Part shown: positions 6,240-31,069 of the stretch, in pieces | How positions within the stretch are numbered: position 1 is the first letter of the stretch | How the letters are laid out: each line of letters starts with the position of its first letter | Assembly: GCA_937135955.1 (NCBI GenBank) | Contig: CAKZOB010000080.1 | Location: 1 to 64,000, forward strand | Length of the DNA stretch: 64,000 nt | Reading direction: 5' to 3' | Origin: an uncultured Anaerolineales bacterium | GTDB lineage: Bacteria > Chloroflexota > Anaerolineae > Aggregatilineales > Aggregatilineaceae | The notes under the pieces: model-generated | Seen by the model: only the letters and a program-made list of their open reading frames with translations | Told to the model about the DNA's origin: nothing | Database searches by the model: none | Translations under genes and position numbers: made by a program

Positions 6240-8243
6240 ATGACATCCGACGAATTGATCGCCCTCTTGCAGTTGATCAGTGAGACGCTAGCGGCCACGA
6301 TCGTGATCGTGGCAGTGTCCATTTTACTGTACAATCTGGCCCGTAATACGCGCGATCGGGTGACGCGGACTTCCAGTCTGGTTCTGCTGTGCGTCATCTT
6401 CGTCTATGTGGGCGACGTGTTCATCGCCCTGGAACCGGACAAGACCTACCTGGATACGTGGCTGCGGTTTCAGTGGGTCGGCATCGCTTTTGTGCCGGCG
6501 ACGCTCTTGCATCTATCCGATGCGTTGCTGGCGACCACGGGACGCCCCTCGCGAGGGCGACGGCGCGCTGTGATACGCCTGGCCTATGTGCTCAGCGCAG
6601 TGTTAACCTGGCTGGCCGCGTTCACCGATTCCGTCATCGTCGGCCCTGCCTCGCCAGACCTGCCGCACATGAAGGCCGGGCCTGTGTTCCCGCTCTATGT
6701 AGCATACCTGATCGCTGCCGCTGTGCTGTCCATCGTTAACGTGGTACGTGCCCGGCAGCGCTGCCTGACCCGCTATACACGGCGGCGTATGACGTATCTG
6801 CTCTCCGTGTTCCTGACGCCAGCCTGGGGCATCTTTCCTTATTCGTTGCTGGGACGGCTCGGCTCCGAACAGGATGTCCCGCTGCTGGTCGTCATCAACC
6901 TGGCCAATTTGGTCGTGATGCTCATGCTGATCTTCATGGCGTATCCTCTGTCCTTCTTCGGCTCGGAGCGTCCCGACCGGGTAGTAAAGTCGCAACTGGT
7001 GGAATTCATGCTGCGCGGACCATTCACTGGCGCGGCAGTGCTGGCGGTCATTCTGTTCGTGCCACGTGCTTCGAACGTGCTCGGCCTGGATGGCGACGCC
7101 ATCATGCCATTCTTCGCCGTTGCCACAGTGCTGTTCCTGCAATGGTCTATCACGCTGATTCTGCCTTGGCTGCAACGCTGGCTGATCTATACGGAAGACC
7201 AGCAGAAAGCTCAGTGGATTCAACGCCTGAGCGAGCGTCTGCTCACGCAGGCCGACGCCGCACAGTTGCTGGAGTCGATCCTGGCGGCCATCTGCGACAA
7301 CTTGCGCGTGCCGACCGCTTTTGTGGCTCGCGTCGAGCCAGACGGCGCGCAACTTGTGCAGGTTGTGGGCGACCTGGCACCGTCCAGCGAGGCGCTGGCC
7401 TCACCAGAGCTATCAAATATCGTGGCAGAGGGTGAACAGGAAGACAGCGCTGGGTTGCCGCGCTATGGCTCGATCTATCTGTGGCGCTCCTATTGGCTGA
7501 TCCCTCTGCGTCGCACCTATCAGGCCGAGGATGGGCCGCGCTCCTCTTTGATCGGCGTGCTAGGCATCTGGGCGCGCGCTCCGCAACCCGACCTCGATCC
7601 CGAAGAACGGATGGTACTGAGCGCGCTGACCAGACAGGCAGCGCGAGTCCTGGAAGGAGTGCAGCAACAGTCCGAGGTATTCGTTATCCTGGAAGGGCTA
7701 GCCTCGCAAATGGAATTCATGCAACAACTACGAGGGCAATCGCGCTACGGCCACGTGAAGGCACTGCCCGAACCGGATAGCAGCCCCATCTCTACGCCGG
7801 AATTCCAGAACATGGTGCGCGATGCCCTGCGCGATTACTGGGGTGGCCCCAAGTTGACCGAAAGTGAGCTGCTCAAGCTCAATGTGGTGTGGAAGGAGAT
7901 GGAACAGAACCAGGAGCGAAATCCTGTTCGTGCGCTGCGCACAGTGCTGGCCCAGGCGATAGAGAATCTCCGCCCCGAAGGTGAGCGTAACCTGACTACC
8001 ACGGAATGGATTCTCTACAACATTCTGGAAATGCGCTTCCTGCAGGGACGCAAAGTACGTGATGTAGCGCTGCGTCTGGCTATGAGCGAGTCTGATCTGT
8101 ACCGCAAGCAGCGCATCGCCATCGAAGAGGTAGCGCGGCAGATCGAGGCGATGGAGCGGCAGGCTATTGCCGAACGCCGCCGTATCAACGGACTAAACGG
8201 CGGTGCTAGCTCGTTTGACAACGATTCACAGCCTTCACTATAA
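6240..8243 (+). CDS. Multi-pass membrane sensor with GAF-like region and C-terminal HTH
   Basis: About 667 residues. The first 300 hold roughly nine hydrophobic helices, resembling the 7TM N-terminal module of some sensor kinases. Residues of about 320-490 look like a GAF-type sensor region (AAQLLESILAAICDNL, then VLGIWARAP). The C-terminal third has no His-kinase box or ATPase motif. It ends instead in a segment like sigma-70 region 4 or a LuxR-type helix-turn-helix (VRDVALRLAMSESDLYRKQR, about 605-625). I infer a membrane-bound one-component regulator or a protein-interaction scaffold. An alternative GTG start lies 9 bases earlier. The stop codon overlaps the -10 box of the next promoter. 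Confidence 0.6.
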   Translation: MTSDELIALLQLISETLAATIVIVAVSILLYNLARNTRDRVTRTSSLVLLCVIFVYVGDVFIALEPDKTYLDTWLRFQWVGIAFVPATLLHLSDALLATTGRPSRGRRRAVIRLAYVLSAVLTWLAAFTDSVIVGPASPDLPHMKAGPVFPLYVAYLIAAAVLSIVNVVRARQRCLTRYTRRRMTYLLSVFLTPAWGIFPYSLLGRLGSEQDVPLLVVINLANLVVMLMLIFMAYPLSFFGSERPDRVVKSQLVEFMLRGPFTGAAVLAVILFVPRASNVLGLDGDAIMPFFAVATVLFLQWSITLILPWLQRWLIYTEDQQKAQWIQRLSERLLTQADAAQLLESILAAICDNLRVPTAFVARVEPDGAQLVQVVGDLAPSSEALASPELSNIVAEGEQEDSAGLPRYGSIYLWRSYWLIPLRRTYQAEDGPRSSLIGVLGIWARAPQPDLDPEERMVLSALTRQAARVLEGVQQQSEVFVILEGLASQMEFMQQLRGQSRYGHVKALPEPDSSPISTPEFQNMVRDALRDYWGGPKLTESELLKLNVVWKEMEQNQERNPVRALRTVLAQAIENLRPEGERNLTTTEWILYNILEMRFLQGRKVRDVALRLAMSESDLYRKQRIAIEEVARQIEAMERQAIAERRRINGLNGGASSFDNDSQPSL

Positions 8244-9504: not shown

Positions 9505-10437
9505 ATGAAGTGGCGCGCCCAGGCATTGTTCAGCACTTATAGCATTGTGGCCCGTGACAGCCAGACTGGTCAGCTTGGTGTGGCTGTCCAGACCCATCAG
9601 ATGTGCGTCGGGGCAGTGGTTCCCTGGCTCGCACCTGGCGTTGGGGCCATTGCCACACAGTCTCTCGCCAATATCTCCTTTGGTCCCATCGGGCTGGCAA
9701 TGTTGAAAGCTGGTGTGCCCGCTCCTAAAGTGATCGAGGCTCTGGTGGCTTGCGACGATAATGCTCAAGTGCGTCAAGTGGCCGTCGTAGACGCCGCCGG
9801 TCGTGTTGGGGCGTGGACAGGCTCCGGATGCATTCCAGAAGCGAGCCATCACACTGGCGAAGGGTACAGCGTACAGGCAAACATGATGACTGCGTCCTCT
9901 GTAGTCCCGGCGATGGCCGATGCCTTTGAGCATGCTGAGGGAGACCTGGCCCAACGTATGCTGGCTGCGCTGGAAGCTGCTCAGTCAGAAGGCGGTGACA
10001 TCCGCGGGATGCAGTCCGCTGCTTTGAAGGTAGTGGATGGCAAACCCGACCCGGCGTGGCCGTACATCTACGACCTGCGCGTGGATGAGCACGACGAGCC
10101 GGTGCGAGAACTGGCCCGGCTGGTGCGGCTGCGTCACGCGCAATTGGTCGAGCAGCAAGGTTACGAGGCCTTGGAGCAGGGCGATCGGGAGCGCGCGCTC
10201 TCCCTGTGGGCCGCAGCCCGCGCCGAAGCGCCAGAGCTGGAAGAACTGGCCTTTTGGCAGGCAGTCACTCTGGCCGACGATGCCGGAGACGCGCGAGCCG
10301 GCGCAGACTTGCTCCGTCCGGTACTGAGCAATGACCCCCGGCGCGAACATTGGCTTGACCTCATCGCACGCCTGCAACACTGCGGGCTGATCAAGCGCAG
10401 CGGAGCCGGAGACGAACTCCTGAGCTTGCTGCGCTGA
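9505..10437 (+). CDS. DUF1028 family protein with C-terminal TPR-like extension
   Basis: The N-terminal part (about 1-215) is a DUF1028 domain: FSTYSIVARDSQTGQLGVAV, then TQSLANISFGPIGL, and GSGCIPEASHHTGEGY. DUF1028 proteins resemble Ntn-hydrolases in fold, but their substrate is not established. The remainder (about 215-310) is alpha-helical with tetratricopeptide character (YEALEQGDRERALSLWAAA), a common appendix in this family. No signal peptide is seen. GTG at 9493 is a possible alternative start, but the GAGGAG then touches it. The gene is convergent with sufE, 47 bases away. Confidence 0.8.
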   Translation: MKWRAQALFSTYSIVARDSQTGQLGVAVQTHQMCVGAVVPWLAPGVGAIATQSLANISFGPIGLAMLKAGVPAPKVIEALVACDDNAQVRQVAVVDAAGRVGAWTGSGCIPEASHHTGEGYSVQANMMTASSVVPAMADAFEHAEGDLAQRMLAALEAAQSEGGDIRGMQSAALKVVDGKPDPAWPYIYDLRVDEHDEPVRELARLVRLRHAQLVEQQGYEALEQGDRERALSLWAAARAEAPELEELAFWQAVTLADDAGDARAGADLLRPVLSNDPRREHWLDLIARLQHCGLIKRSGAGDELLSLLR

Positions 10438-10484
10438 GAAGTGCCCGCAGAAAACGTCTGGAGCAGAGGTGAGGTCGTGTCAGG

Positions 10485-10940
10485 TCAGCCTTCCTTCTCT
10501 CTCAGAAAAGCCCTGGCTGCTGCCTGCACCATGCTCACCATGCCCATCAGCCCCTGACCTTTGCCCATAGAAATATCGTTGCCGAAGAGACGCAGAACGA
10601 TATCTGGTGACACGGCAGCCACCTGTTCGACTGGCGCGCCGGATAAGGTTGCGTCCAGGATGGCGGCCAGAGCCATCGCCGAAAGCCCCTGGGGGTTCTC
10701 CACAGCGAAGTAGAACTGAAGCGTGCCGTCCTGGCGCGGGTGTGCCCAGACAAAGGCTTCGGATTCGCAGAAGGGCACACGCCGATCCTCCGGATAGGGA
10801 GGAACAGCAATGTGAGAAGGCACAGGTTTGAAGCGATCTGCCCAGTCAATGAGCAACTCTGCCCGTTCCGCGCGAGAGGTGACAAAGGCGAAATCGGCCA
10901 GAACTTCAGCCAGGGCGGGTGGATAGTCAGTCATACTCAT
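10485..10940 (-). CDS. sufE: SufE family sulfur acceptor
   Basis: SufE accepts a persulfide sulfur on a conserved cysteine and passes it on to Fe-S cluster assembly. The 151 residues are full length for the family. The catalytic cysteine is in VPFCESEAFVWA (about residue 58), and the QFYFAVENPQGLSAMALAAIL segment (about 75-96) matches the core fold. The start lies 3 bases past the sseA stop, so both form one operon. The usual partner of SufE is a cysteine desulfurase (SufS). None is present here; instead the upstream gene is a rhodanese-type sulfurtransferase, an arrangement also known from Actinobacteria. Confidence 0.9.
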   Translation of the reverse strand: MSMTDYPPALAEVLADFAFVTSRAERAELLIDWADRFKPVPSHIAVPPYPEDRRVPFCESEAFVWAHPRQDGTLQFYFAVENPQGLSAMALAAILDATLSGAPVEQVAAVSPDIVLRLFGNDISMGKGQGLMGMVSMVQAAARAFLREKEG

Positions 10941-25495: not shown

Positions 25496-26809
25496 ATGTT
25501 TAAGCGTCTTGGTGTTCTCGTGTTGATCGCCATGCTGCTGGTCGGCGTCGCTCCGCGTGGCGGGGCAGGCGCTCAAGGGGAAGTCTGGTGCGGCACGGAT
25601 GAGCCGGTCAACCTGACCTTCATCGCTGGTACAGTTGGCGGCGAGCACGAAGTATACGTCAGCATCGTCGAGAAATTTATGGCTGAGATCTGCCCCAACG
25701 TGACGGTGAAGGTGGTAGAACGGCCCGAAAGCACTACTGACACGCTGGCACAGTATCAGCAGTTCTTTGCAGCGCAGAGTCCGGAACTGGATGTCTTCAT
25801 GATTGACGTGGCCTGGCCGGGCCTGATCGCCGAGCACCTGCTGGATGTCAGCGAATATCTCGACGAGGAAGCGCTCAGCCGCTTCTATCCGGCGCTGATC
25901 GAGGCGTACACCATCGGTGGCCGTCTGGTAGCACTGCCCTGGTTCGCTGGATCGGGTATGCTCTACTACCGCACGGACTTGCTGGAGAAGTATGGCCTGG
26001 AAGTGCCGCAGACCTGGGATGAACTGGCCGCGGCAGCCAAGACCATTCAGGAAGGCGAACGCGCTGCCGGTAACCCCGATTTCTGGGGATTCGTCTTCCA
26101 GGGCAAGGCCTATGAGGGGCTGACCTGCGACGCGCTCGAATGGCAGGTGTCGTATGGTGGTGGTCGTATCCTCAGCCCAGAGGGCGTGATCGAGGTCAAC
26201 GACCCGGCGACCATCGAGATCTTCGACAAGATCGCGAGCTGGGTTGGCGACTTCGTGCCGCCGGATGTGGTGAACTACCAGGAAGAAGATGCCCGCGCCG
26301 TCTGGCAGGCGGGGAACGCCGCTTTCATGCGCAACTGGGGGTATGCCTACACCTTGGGTCAGGCCGAAGACAGCGTGATCAAGGACAAGTTCAGCGTGGC
26401 TCCGCTGCCGGGCAAAGAGCCGGGCATGAGCGCCGCGACGCTGGGCGGTTGGGGCCTGTCTGTTTCCAAGTACTCGGCCAATCCCGAAGCGTCTGTCGCC
26501 TTCATCAACTGGATGACCGACTATGATGCGCTGAAGCTGTTCCACCTGGCCCGCGGTGAAGCGCCTGTGTTGCCCACCCTGTATGAGGATCCGGAACTGC
26601 TTGAGGTGTTGCCCTACCTGGCCTACACGGGCGACGTGCTCAACTTCGCGACGGCCCGTCCGGGCGGTGTAGCTGGCACACAGTATGGCACTGTCTCGGA
26701 ACTGTACTACACGGCTGTCAACAACATCCTGTCCGGCAAGACGGATGCGGCAACCGCTATGGCGGAGTTGGAACTGGCCCTGGCGGACCTGGGCTTTGAA
26801 CTTCCCTAG
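25496..26809 (+). CDS. Extracellular sugar-binding protein of an ABC importer
   Basis: 437 residues of the MalE/UgpB cluster. A signal peptide (about 5-27, ending GAGAQG) precedes the two-lobe binding fold. Landmarks are LDVFMIDVAWPGLIAEHLL, the ligand-side LPWFAGSGMLYYRTDLLEKYG, and AAFMRNWGYAYTL, which resemble trehalose/maltose- or glycoside-binding proteins of thermophiles. There is no lipobox cysteine at the cleavage site, so unlike many Gram-positive binding proteins it may not be lipidated. The ATG at 25496 has AGGAG about 9 bases upstream. A stable hairpin separates it from the permease genes. Confidence 0.9.
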   Translation: MFKRLGVLVLIAMLLVGVAPRGGAGAQGEVWCGTDEPVNLTFIAGTVGGEHEVYVSIVEKFMAEICPNVTVKVVERPESTTDTLAQYQQFFAAQSPELDVFMIDVAWPGLIAEHLLDVSEYLDEEALSRFYPALIEAYTIGGRLVALPWFAGSGMLYYRTDLLEKYGLEVPQTWDELAAAAKTIQEGERAAGNPDFWGFVFQGKAYEGLTCDALEWQVSYGGGRILSPEGVIEVNDPATIEIFDKIASWVGDFVPPDVVNYQEEDARAVWQAGNAAFMRNWGYAYTLGQAEDSVIKDKFSVAPLPGKEPGMSAATLGGWGLSVSKYSANPEASVAFINWMTDYDALKLFHLARGEAPVLPTLYEDPELLEVLPYLAYTGDVLNFATARPGGVAGTQYGTVSELYYTAVNNILSGKTDAATAMAELELALADLGFELP

Positions 26810-26855
26810 GCTGCCCGCAGCAGTCGCTCTGCTGACATGATGAATCGCTGATCAA

Positions 26856-26883
26856 GGCTGGGGGCAGAGGGTTGCCCCCAGCC
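26856..26883 (+). terminator. Intra-operon hairpin after the binding-protein gene
   Basis: An 11-bp perfect stem GGCTGGGGGCA / TGCCCCCAGCC with a 6-base loop, followed by TGCATTTATG rather than a full T tract. It sits in the 112-base gap before the permease gene. It would let some transcripts stop or be protected here, giving more binding protein than permease, a common arrangement. Confidence 0.6.
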
Positions 26884-26921
26884 TGCATTTATGAGGCTGT
26901 ATCAGAGGGGAGGCTGGTGCA

Positions 26922-28826
26922 ATGACGCTCATTCCGCCCTCAGTTGGTCGGCGGCGTCCTAGCGAGCAAGAAGTGATCGCTGTCGAACTGATCAGCGGCC
27001 TGTTGATGCTCATCGGCCTGTTCGCTTTTGCCTATCTCTTCTACGCGATTGCCACTAACGACACCATCCGCGAAGCCACGCAAGGACCGGAGATTCCAGG
27101 CGTGGGGTTGAATGTCGTGTACAAGGCCCCCGAAGGCGAAGAACCGCACTTCGAGCTGCGGCCCATCGAAGGCGGACAGGCAGGGGCTTCTGGGATCAAG
27201 GAAGGCGACTGGCTGGTGAGCATTGACGGGGAAGACGTCAGTGGCATGAGTCTGGCAGAGGTGCAGGCTCGGCTAGAAGAGAAGGACGTCAGCCGCGAAG
27301 AAGACGATTTTGAGATCACAATAGGCTTTCTCCGTCCCAAACCAGACGGCACGTTTTCTCAGCAAGAACGAGTCGTTCCGAAGAATGTTGCCCCCACACT
27401 CACCATTGCCTACCTGAAAAGTTTCGGCTTTGTGGTGCCATTGGTCGTGATCGGCCTGGGCGCGCTCCTGATTCGGCTGGGAAATCGGTTACGGCGCTAC
27501 GACATTGTCGCGGCACGTTGGGCTATAGTCGTCTTCCTGTGGCTGATGATCGGAGCAGTGGTAGGGGCAATCTGGGCTTTCTGGGTGAACGGTAAAGGCG
27601 GACTGGTCGGCAACGCGCCGTTCAATTACGGCAAGGCGATCAGTCGCGCTGTGCCCTATCTGCTGGCAATCATTCCACTGGCGCTATCGTATCGCTGGCT
27701 CAACCAGGTCATTGATGAGATTTTCGACGGCGAAGAGTCGTTGATGTCACGCCAGACGCGCTTTGCCTGGACGCTGTTGGTGCCCACGCTCTCCGTGCTT
27801 ATTTTGGTGGCAGCGCGACCGCTGGAGCAGACTTTCATCAAGAGCCTGACTGACGACGAATTCAGCGCCAACCGCCCGGCTCGCCTCATCTGGTTTGACA
27901 ACTACACGCGCCTGCTCAGCTTCAAGCTGGCGACAGTGGAGTGCAAGAAGGATGACAACGGTGAGTGCGCCCGCTCGCCCAACGGGAGTATCGTGTGGCA
28001 GACTTCATCTGTTGAAGAGGAAGAGCGCAACAAGCTGCGCGAGATGAGCAGCGCCGAACGCAAGCGTTATGCTCGTTACAGTGAAGCCTCTACCCTGGCC
28101 TTGCCGTTCAGCGACAAAGGCCTGCGTATCCTGGGCAAAGACCCTATTTTCCTCAACGCTATTGGCAATACCTTGAAATTCACGGTCGCCTCAGTCATTT
28201 TGGAACTGTTGCTGGGGCTGATCATCGCTATGGCGGTGAATTCGCGCTTCAAAGGACGTGGCCTGATGCGCGCAGCCATGTTGGTGCCCTGGGCAATCCC
28301 GACGGTGGTTTCTGCCGTCCTGTGGTCGGTGATTCTGCGCGGAGATCAGACTGGCATTTTCAACAAACTGCTGATGGACCTGGGCATCATCTCCAAGCCG
28401 CAGCAATGGTTTTCCGCCAACGGCCCCTGGATGGCCTCCATCATCGCTGTAGATGTGTGGAAGACGGCCCCCTTCATGGCCCTGCTGCTGCTGGCCGGGC
28501 TGCAGGTGATCCCTGGCGATCTCTATGAAGCCGCAGCCGTTGACGGGGCGTCGAAGGTGCGTCAGTTCTTCTCAATCACTCTGCCGATGCTGCGTCCTAC
28601 CATCGCTGTGGCACTGATCTTTCGCACGCTCGACGCCTTGCGCGTGTTTGATGTCTTCCAGGTATTGCTGGACACAACACGCCCGTCCATGGCCACGTAC
28701 AACTACAACCGCTTGGTCTTGACCCGTTCTGATGGCTACGCCTCTGCCGTGGGCGTGATGATCTTCATCCTCATTTTCATCTTCACCGTTCTGTACGTCA
28801 GGTTTGTGAGGATTGAGCGAGAATGA
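26922..28826 (+). CDS. MalF-type sugar permease with inserted extracellular PDZ-like domain
   Basis: 634 residues, twice the usual size of about 300. After a first membrane helix (about 22-45) comes a PDZ-like domain at about 60-155, with IKEGDWLVSIDGEDVSGMS (about 88-106) as its signature. Four or so further hydrophobic helices follow (about 165-300), then a charged loop of about 100 residues. The ordinary ABC permease module fills about 405-634, with the EAA loop EAAAVDGASKVRQFFSITLP near 535-554. The C-terminal module is clearly the MalF-like subunit. Reading topology, the PDZ part should face outward. It overlaps the next permease by ATGA. No ATPase gene is nearby, so a shared one must be used. 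Confidence 0.85.
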   Translation: MTLIPPSVGRRRPSEQEVIAVELISGLLMLIGLFAFAYLFYAIATNDTIREATQGPEIPGVGLNVVYKAPEGEEPHFELRPIEGGQAGASGIKEGDWLVSIDGEDVSGMSLAEVQARLEEKDVSREEDDFEITIGFLRPKPDGTFSQQERVVPKNVAPTLTIAYLKSFGFVVPLVVIGLGALLIRLGNRLRRYDIVAARWAIVVFLWLMIGAVVGAIWAFWVNGKGGLVGNAPFNYGKAISRAVPYLLAIIPLALSYRWLNQVIDEIFDGEESLMSRQTRFAWTLLVPTLSVLILVAARPLEQTFIKSLTDDEFSANRPARLIWFDNYTRLLSFKLATVECKKDDNGECARSPNGSIVWQTSSVEEEERNKLREMSSAERKRYARYSEASTLALPFSDKGLRILGKDPIFLNAIGNTLKFTVASVILELLLGLIIAMAVNSRFKGRGLMRAAMLVPWAIPTVVSAVLWSVILRGDQTGIFNKLLMDLGIISKPQQWFSANGPWMASIIAVDVWKTAPFMALLLLAGLQVIPGDLYEAAAVDGASKVRQFFSITLPMLRPTIAVALIFRTLDALRVFDVFQVLLDTTRPSMATYNYNRLVLTRSDGYASAVGVMIFILIFIFTVLYVRFVRIERE

Positions 28827-29707
28827 ACGCCAAACCGGGGATTGCCTCTCAGCAGACTCTTCTGGTACCCAGACGCATCACTGACCTGGTTGGTCGTGCT
28901 CTGTTCTGGCTCCTGATTCTGGCCATCGCCTTCTACACGATGGCTCCCTTTGCCTACGCTATCAGCATCTCTTTCCGCACCAACGCACAGGTACTGGTCT
29001 CTGCCCGTTATCTGCCAGAAGACCCGCAACTGATCAACTATCAGAACCTGTTCGAAGACAGTGATTTCATGCGCACCATGCTGAACTCGTCGTTCGTCTC
29101 CAGCGTCACGGTCGTGTTCTCGCTGGTCGTGGGATCATTCGCCGCCTACGCCTTGGGACGAGTGCAGTTCAAAGGGCGCATGATAGTGCTGTATACTGTG
29201 CTGGCGATGACCATGTTCCCGCAGATTTCCATCCTGTCGGGCCTGTTCGCCATCGTCAACGATCTCAACATCTTTGGTTCGACTGCCGCCCTGATCTTCA
29301 CCTACCCGATCTTCACGCTCCCGTTCACCGTCTGGGTATTGACCAGTTTCTTCCAGGGCTTGCCAGCGGAAATTGAACAGGCCGCACTGGTAGATGGGGC
29401 GACGCCATTTCAGACCTTCTGGCGCATACTGGTGCCGCTCACCGCTCCGGCGCTGGTGACAACGGGCTTGCTGGCGTTCATCGCGGCTTGGAACGAATAT
29501 CTGTTCGCCTTGACCTTCACGCTGGTCAGCAAGAGCGCGCAGACGGTGCCTGTGGCAATTGCCAACTTTGGCGGCTATGGTTACGAAATCCCCGTTGCGG
29601 ACCGCATTGCGGCCACCGTGATCGTGACCGTCCCCGTGCTGGTGCTGGTGCTGATTTTCCAGCGCCGCATCATCGAAGGGCTGACAGCGGGCGCGGTGAA
29701 GGGATAA
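28823..29707 (+). CDS. MalG-type sugar ABC permease
   Basis: 294 residues, six expected helices, the normal size for the second permease of a carbohydrate importer (CUT1). The EAA loop reads EQAALVDGATPFQTFWRILV near 188-207, the site that docks on the ATPase. The start overlaps the stop of the PDZ-permease (ATGA), indicating translational coupling and a heterodimer. It begins with a cytoplasmic stretch of about 22 residues. A hairpin follows downstream. Confidence 0.93.
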   Translation: MNAKPGIASQQTLLVPRRITDLVGRALFWLLILAIAFYTMAPFAYAISISFRTNAQVLVSARYLPEDPQLINYQNLFEDSDFMRTMLNSSFVSSVTVVFSLVVGSFAAYALGRVQFKGRMIVLYTVLAMTMFPQISILSGLFAIVNDLNIFGSTAALIFTYPIFTLPFTVWVLTSFFQGLPAEIEQAALVDGATPFQTFWRILVPLTAPALVTTGLLAFIAAWNEYLFALTFTLVSKSAQTVPVAIANFGGYGYEIPVADRIAATVIVTVPVLVLVLIFQRRIIEGLTAGAVKG

Positions 29708-29905: not shown

Positions 29906-31069
29906 ATGATAAAGCGCCTGACAGGACAGTTTAATATCATAGGCAAGGCGGCTTTAAGCACTCTCGCGCCCTCTCTTTACCGGCTTGGCTTCGTGCTTCT
30001 GGGGGTGATTATCGGCCTGGCGTGGGCCTATCAGGGAGCACCGATCAAGTTCCGCGACGCCGAGCCAGTCCACCTTGCCGCTGGCTACAAAGATCAGTGG
30101 ATCAAGATGATCGCTGTCGAATATGCCGAGACAGGTGACACAGCAGAGGCCCAACGTAAGATTGTTGCGGGCGGAGTCAGCCCTGCCATGATCCAGGCCC
30201 TTATTGACGCCAATGCGGTCACCGAACCGGACCTGGCTCGCAAATTGCAGGCCTTGCTGCCCATCGCCGAAGAGAGCCGCGCTGCCGCCGGCAAACAGAC
30301 CCAGAAGATCGAAACAAGCTTCTTGGGAGGCATTCTAGGGCCGCTAGCCTGTATCGTGGGCACCGCGGTGATAGGGTTGGTGCTCGCAGTCTTCTTCACT
30401 TTCTACTGGGCTGTGCCGCGCCAGGGATTGTCACGGCGCAGGGCCGAACCCATTTCTGGAGCAACTGTCCCCACTGGGGGAGCAGCCGCTCCCGCGCCGG
30501 CGAGTATTCTGGCTGCCAAGCGCGATGCAGCGCGAGAGAAAACAGATTTCAAGGCGCGCGGAGAAGTGCCGCCGGTCTGCCAATTTGTCTCTACTTACGT
30601 CCTGGGCGATAGCTTATACGACGAGTCCTTCCCCATTGAGACTGCGAAGGGCATGTTCCTGGGCGAGTGCGGTTCCAGCATTGGCGAAACGATTGGGGTA
30701 GGGGAACCCAAAAAGGTCACAGCGACAGAGGTCTGGTTGTTCGACAAGAACGACATCACGACAGTGACCAAAGTGATCATGTCGGAACATGCCTATTACG
30801 ATCAGGCGCTGCGCACTAAGCTGGCCTCCAAGGGCGAGGCTGTGCTGGCCACGCCGGGCATGACCACTGTCCTTGAGACTCAGACGCTGCGCGCGCAGGT
30901 GCGCATCGTAGACGTGCAGTATGGGGAAGGAGCATTGCCGCCGCACAGTTTCTTCGAGCGGTTGGTAGTCGAAATCGCTGTGTGGGCCAAGGAGGGGGCA
31001 GAGGGCGGAGCCGGAGAACCCGACACCTCCGCCGCTTTCGGAGATACCGCCGAACTGCTCAACTATTGA
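29906..31069 (+). CDS. Membrane protein of unknown function
   Basis: 387 residues; family not recognised. There are two membrane helices, one at about 25-45 and one at about 145-172. The loop between them (about 100 residues, charged, with VTEPDLARKLQALL) would be on one side. A low-complexity Ala/Pro stretch at about 185-205 leads into a C-terminal domain of about 170 residues that contains CQFVSTYVLGDSLYDESFPI and FLGECGSSIGETIG. The cysteines and the mixed alpha/beta pattern suggest a globular cytoplasmic domain. It has its own promoter and a strong terminator, so it is a single-gene unit. Confidence 0.7.
   Translation: MIKRLTGQFNIIGKAALSTLAPSLYRLGFVLLGVIIGLAWAYQGAPIKFRDAEPVHLAAGYKDQWIKMIAVEYAETGDTAEAQRKIVAGGVSPAMIQALIDANAVTEPDLARKLQALLPIAEESRAAAGKQTQKIETSFLGGILGPLACIVGTAVIGLVLAVFFTFYWAVPRQGLSRRRAEPISGATVPTGGAAAPAPASILAAKRDAAREKTDFKARGEVPPVCQFVSTYVLGDSLYDESFPIETAKGMFLGECGSSIGETIGVGEPKKVTATEVWLFDKNDITTVTKVIMSEHAYYDQALRTKLASKGEAVLATPGMTTVLETQTLRAQVRIVDVQYGEGALPPHSFFERLVVEIAVWAKEGAEGGAGEPDTSAAFGDTAELLNY

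Follow-up and report, generated by a model that had tools for sequence, protein, structure and literature searches.

An importer locus with an enlarged permease

The window, that is, the whole 64,000-nucleotide stretch analysed here, carries three genes of a sugar importer: an alpha-glucoside-type, extracellular sugar-binding protein of the SBP_bac_1 family (25496..26809, +; 437 aa; PF01547, 129 bits), a MalF/SugA-type permease that bears a PDZ domain (26922..28826, +; a 634-aa ORF) and a MalG-type partner permease (28823..29707, +; PF00528, 55.8 bits), whose gene overlaps the end of the first permease gene by four bases; an ATPase gene is absent from this three-gene stretch. The PDZ-bearing permease starts 112 bases 3' of the binding-protein gene, with a Shine-Dalgarno-like GGAGG 5' of its ORF. 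In Pfam searches, BPD_transp_1 (PF00528, 69.5 bits) covers its residues 429-629 and a PDZ match covers residues 80-121. The permease core (28143..28823, +; residues 408-634), recognized by PF00528 and by structural similarity to SugA (Z 22-23), includes the EAA loop, which is given as residues 529-545; an EAA-type sequence, EAAAVDGASKVRQFFSITLP, occupies residues 536-555. Judged by its core, its EAA loop and its SBP_bac_1 and MalG-type neighbours, the permease is a MalF/SugA-type subunit of a CUT1 ABC sugar importer.

The binding protein is about 44% identical to a Thermus alpha-glycoside-binding protein (6j9w/6jar), of which structures with maltose, trehalose and glucose exist; its identity to the Thermococcus trehalose/maltose-binding protein (1eu8) is 36% (both values from structural alignments). 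The substrate of the importer is thus probably an alpha-glucoside such as trehalose, maltose or sucrose. The protein begins with a plain Sec signal that has no lipobox at the cleavage site (MFKRLGVLVLIAMLLVGVAPRGGAGAQ), just as the earlier note had read it.

Two further elements flank the permease genes. A GC-rich hairpin with a 13-bp stem (26855..26884, +) lies between the binding-protein and permease genes and is reminiscent of the stem-loops found between malE and malF in E. coli; similar hairpins with changed bases occupy the same place in 10 PDZ-bearing relatives, and the z-score of the whole region is only -2.0. The hairpin probably sets stoichiometry. Directly downstream of the MalG-type gene, a 387-aa protein (29906-31069) matches no Pfam family and seems to have two membrane helices; its gene is found in 17 of 18 genomes of the family, whether the transporter permease is present or not.

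A PDZ domain on the outer face

The earlier note had described a 634-residue permease with a PDZ-like domain after the first membrane helix, and the ORF, the profile match, the structural model and Foldseek all bear this out. The domain occupies approximately residues 48-156 (27063..27389, +) and is of the S41/CtpA type by profile, model, Foldseek and phmmer. The PF00595 score is 25.4 bits for the entire permease and 29.3 bits for a fragment covering residues 50-160 (cut-off 23.2), and PDZ_6 scores 28.0 bits on the same fragment (cut-off 27), so that the profile search proposed as a check on the PDZ assignment does not refute it. The nearest solved PDZ by sequence belongs to the photosystem II D1 protease D1P/CtpA, an S41 carboxyl-terminal processing protease (phmmer, E 1.1e-6). 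An AlphaFold2 model of the whole protein, with the PDZ within it, was built from 42 homologues and has a mean pLDDT of 83.7; across most of the PDZ the value is about 88-94, with a single block at 75. In Foldseek searches with this model, the core finds SugA and MalF, and a part of about 110 columns finds CtpA proteases (chains 8sxg and 9ku3). The domain also contains a GLGF-type carboxylate-binding loop, PGVGL (27096..27110, +; residues 59-63), which aligns with GVGLEI of D1P and in which G60 and G62 are invariant in all 13 single-PDZ rows aligned. Profile, alignment and model together confirm residues ~48-156 as a genuine PDZ domain.

Which side of the membrane does it face? The first helix, TM1 (26964..27053, +; residues 15-44), is placed by the model, by hydropathy and by an RRR N-terminus, with its N-terminus inside. 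In the MalF/SugA permease family the EAA loop is cytoplasmic. Counting helices back from residues 529-545 gives 503-528, 447-471, 408-442, 274-308, 236-267, 195-225, 160/171-191 and 15-44, and this parity, which the comparison with SugA repeats, puts the PDZ on the outer side and the N-terminus in the cytoplasm. Loop charge agrees, the N-terminus and the TM2-TM3 loop being net positive and the PDZ net negative; the TM4-TM5 and TM3-TM4 loops break the charge rule. The outward orientation claimed in the earlier note is therefore upheld, and a cytoplasmic placement, which the note had named as a way to overturn it, is not what the parity gives.

The extra helices reported before the core are present too: TM2-TM4 (27399..27722, +; residues 160-267) precede it and occur in PDZ-less relatives as well. 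The charged loop of about 100 residues had been misplaced: it is not before the core but at residues 305-407 (27834..28142, +), after the helix equal to SugA TM1, and forms the large loop between the canonical core TM1 and TM2, that is, an extracytoplasmic loop at the position of MalF P2. This placement comes from the structural alignment of residues 273-634 with SugA and MalF; the VIA-align structural rows span mainly residues 272-634 and thus say little about the PDZ. Within the loop, two cysteines (VECKKDDNGEC, residues ~341-350, window 27942-27971) recur in the family consensus as VxCRxDxxGxC and could form an extracellular disulfide.

One reading has the PDZ stand in for the MalF P2 loop. 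This idea is rejected: a loop at the P2 position exists here and, according to the alignments, in PDZ-less relatives, and the PDZ lies elsewhere, between TM1 and TM2. Since the P2-position loop is common to both kinds of permease, the PDZ adds to this loop and does not replace it.

A single insertion in one bacterial order

Two kinds of long permease emerge when 84,980 species genomes are scanned and the window's relatives searched: those with a PDZ, mostly of ~620-670 residues, and those without, of ~500-590 residues. In the PDZ-less orthologues TM1 leads almost straight into TM2; by alignment, the PDZ is a clean insert into an otherwise alignable permease family. The PDZ-bearing form is found in 19 species, all in the window's order, and no PDZ-bearing permease was found outside this order among 396 sampled genomes of the class and 400 of the phylum; besides the window's own, the matches in the phylum are ORFs of S41-protease size, and all four of those tested carry Peptidase_S41. 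On a maximum-likelihood tree of the permease region that follows the PDZ, all PDZ-bearing rows fall into a single clade (100/100 support). The label changes a single time on this tree; neither a repeated independent gain nor a secondary loss, either of which would have made the association stronger, was found. The domain, as far as this phylogeny tells, was acquired once in evolution.

Some permeases carry more than one copy. Two species have two (L021 and L148, with two stretches each found by Pfam). In a third species, G045, there appear to be three, one clear by Pfam and the others read from the alignment. This apparent three-copy permease is the largest version seen (L145:913-3909, minus strand; 999 residues), and its copies are separated by a long charged stretch that is probably helical. 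In another locus (L019), the binding-protein and MalG genes (6555-7857 and 9908-10763) are each split into two overlapping frames, probably by sequencing or assembly frameshifts.

Is the domain simply a neutral passenger of a chance insertion? It does evolve faster than the permease core, as a passenger might; however, its omega of 0.05-0.23 indicates purifying selection, which contradicts this reading, and the domain has been kept in 19 species and multiplied in three. A neutral passenger is thus hardly believable.

The missing lipid anchor

The absence of a lipobox from the binding protein had been offered as the reason for the PDZ. In its strict form, this idea holds that the PDZ substitutes for a lipid anchor and tethers a binding protein that would otherwise be lost by diffusion, a proposal that suits both the lipobox-free signal peptide and the classification of the phylum among monoderms (PMC10608941). 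Yet among 35 other SBP_bac_1 ORFs examined in the same genome, two or three of which have an unclear start or an incomplete gene and cannot be judged, only one (L203) has a plausible lipobox; plain signal peptides are likewise what the binding proteins read from PDZ-less relatives carry. Nearly all of these systems have neither lipobox nor PDZ, so a need for a tether is not special to the PDZ system and the missing lipobox does not explain the domain; we reject it as the reason for the PDZ and regard a lipid-anchor substitute as very unlikely.

The pattern is curious in its own right: almost all of the ~36 SBP_bac_1 proteins of this genome have a plain signal peptide without a lipobox, an unusual situation in a lineage that is believed to have no outer membrane.

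Changes that came with the PDZ

If the PDZ acts on its own importer, where would its traces lie? In E. coli, both P2 of MalF and P1 of MalG are interaction sites of MalE (Daus et al., 2007, 2009, as cited in PMC3150292); altered docking would therefore be expected to show at such sites. PDZ-bearing systems differ from their PDZ-less relatives in all three proteins.

In the binding protein, the difference is a C-terminal tail, GFELP (26792..26806, +; residues 433-437), which occurs only with PDZ-bearing permeases: it is present in 19/19 PDZ-bearing and 0/32 PDZ-less loci, in variants that include GYELPE, GFEFPEE, DFYLPE and GFEAPEME. No other readable substrate-binding protein of the window's own genome matches the pattern. 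Eight of the 437 binding-protein columns discriminate fully between the two groups, and three of these are among the five C-terminal residues (scan p 0.01, a value that, like all our scan p-values, assumes randomly placed columns and ignores differences in variability along the proteins). Another discriminating residue, T83, aligns with R49, which is mutated in the ligand-bound Thermus structures; a change of substrate on the same branch is thus possible. Compared with the Thermus (6j9w) and Thermococcus (1eu8) proteins, the binding protein differs in both respects, having the added tail and T83 instead of R49.

In MalG, residues 45-59 (28955..28999, +), where TM1 reaches the outer side and the P1 loop begins, contain 7 of the 12 fixed differences between the groups, compared with 3-4 in control splits; the motif reads Y..SISFRTN in PDZ-bearing systems and W..(S/T)S(F/L)K(T/S)E in their relatives. 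In the MalF-type permease, 12 of 15 discriminating columns are extracytoplasmic (p 0.0016), whereas control splits drawn within PDZ-less groups, independently of the PDZ, give 34-52%; the loop residues that changed along with the PDZ are 226-227, 319, 362, 402 and 404. All these co-occurring changes lie on one branch and so count as one event, for which a change of substrate might also account.

What do the altered sites suggest? One answer is that the PDZ is a structural accessory that touches the P2-position loop or MalG P1 and stabilises or regulates the assembly, with no peptide binding at all. The joint change of MalG 45-59 and of the MalF loop residues fits such a role; however, the role does not require conservation of the carboxylate-binding loop, and the PDZ-less relatives possess the same helices and loop. 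On balance, we consider a structural accessory unlikely.

The tail points elsewhere, to the binding protein, and is the leading candidate for the surface that the PDZ would bind. The most specific form of this idea is that the PDZ binds the new tail directly, as a non-covalent peptide tether to the importer, tandem PDZs holding more than one binding protein. Two observations argue against direct recognition: (i) the tail is modelled as ordered (pLDDT ~95, with a bridge at 435); and (ii) its terminal residue is P, E or Q, whereas PDZ ligands usually end in a hydrophobic residue. The peptide tether is distinctly unlikely.

A possible docking role for the PDZ

The best explanation, to which we tentatively give a little under an even chance, is that the PDZ functions as part of the surface on which the sugar-binding protein docks outside the membrane. 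A MalF-like subunit gained an S41-protease-type PDZ once, between TM1 and TM2, on its outer face; according to this model, the PDZ would recruit, hold or orient the non-lipidated binding protein, or gate its docking, acting beside MalG P1 and the P2-position loop. The domain, its side as given by helix parity, its one origin, the purifying selection and the accompanying changes are computational results; from them we infer both a contact between the PDZ and the binding protein and an effect of this contact on transport. Against docking stand the many other transporters of the genome, which manage with neither a PDZ nor lipidated binding proteins. The earlier note thus fares unevenly: a real, outward-facing PDZ next to a non-lipidated binding protein holds, its lipobox rationale and its replacement of P2 do not, and docking of the binding protein by the PDZ is plausible, with indirect support from the accompanying changes in the binding-protein tail, in MalG P1 and at extracytoplasmic sites of MalF.

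The partner could also be a different molecule. C-terminal peptides are frequent ligands of PDZ domains (PMC2891790), and the PDZ of CTP proteases binds the substrate and regulates the protease (PMC6686036); by analogy, the permease PDZ may bind the C-terminus of some other protein that is exported or sits on the surface, such as a glycosidase, a protease or an envelope protein. It would thereby bring the importer beside that protein or sense it, and would make no contact with the binding protein. The conserved GLGF-type loop is what such binding would use, and tandem copies would suit a multivalent scaffold. Yet no gene for such a partner stays linked across the PDZ-bearing loci, and an unrelated partner leaves the changes in the tail and in MalG unexplained; we find this alternative somewhat unlikely. 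The downstream gene at 29906 was considered as a partner and rejected, being conserved without the permease and located on another contig in G006.

Comparison with known systems

Taken singly, permease, PDZ and operon are of known kinds; their combination and the position of the PDZ appear undescribed, and a narrow, exact-word search of the open literature gave no paper that describes an ABC importer permease with a PDZ domain. The nearest relatives of the PDZ in sequence and fold are those of S41 proteases (D1P, 1fc6; CtpA, 8sxg), which share the GVGL loop; unlike them, the permease PDZ has no S41 catalytic domain and is fused to a membrane permease. The rest of the protein resembles mycobacterial SugA of LpqY-SugABC (7cad, 8ja7): SugA superposes nearly whole on residues 273-634 (structural alignment, Z 22-23, ~32% identity) but lacks both the four extra helices and the PDZ, and LpqY is annotated as a lipoprotein, whereas the binding protein here has no lipobox. 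With E. coli MalF (2r6g, 3puy) the permease shares the core and an enlarged P2-position loop; the element added here is the PDZ, which sits at another site, and the extra helices number four, as compared with two in MalF.

OpuA and GlnPQ are ABC importers in which a binding domain is fused to the permease and binds the solute. They too have an extracytoplasmic domain on the permease; here, by contrast, the domain has a fold of a kind that binds proteins, and the sugar-binding protein has a gene of its own. Should the PDZ prove to bind peptides, its place on the outside of the permease would be a new way for a binding-protein-dependent transporter to employ an accessory domain, in addition to fused binding domains, lipid anchors and the P2 loop of MalF.

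The closest comparison is with the PDZ-less long permeases of Anaerolineae and Trueperaceae (L022-L052), which share the extra helices, the P2-position loop and the operon order; those systems differ in having no PDZ and a binding protein without the tail. The existence of both versions in closely related bacteria makes the role of the domain testable by comparison or exchange.
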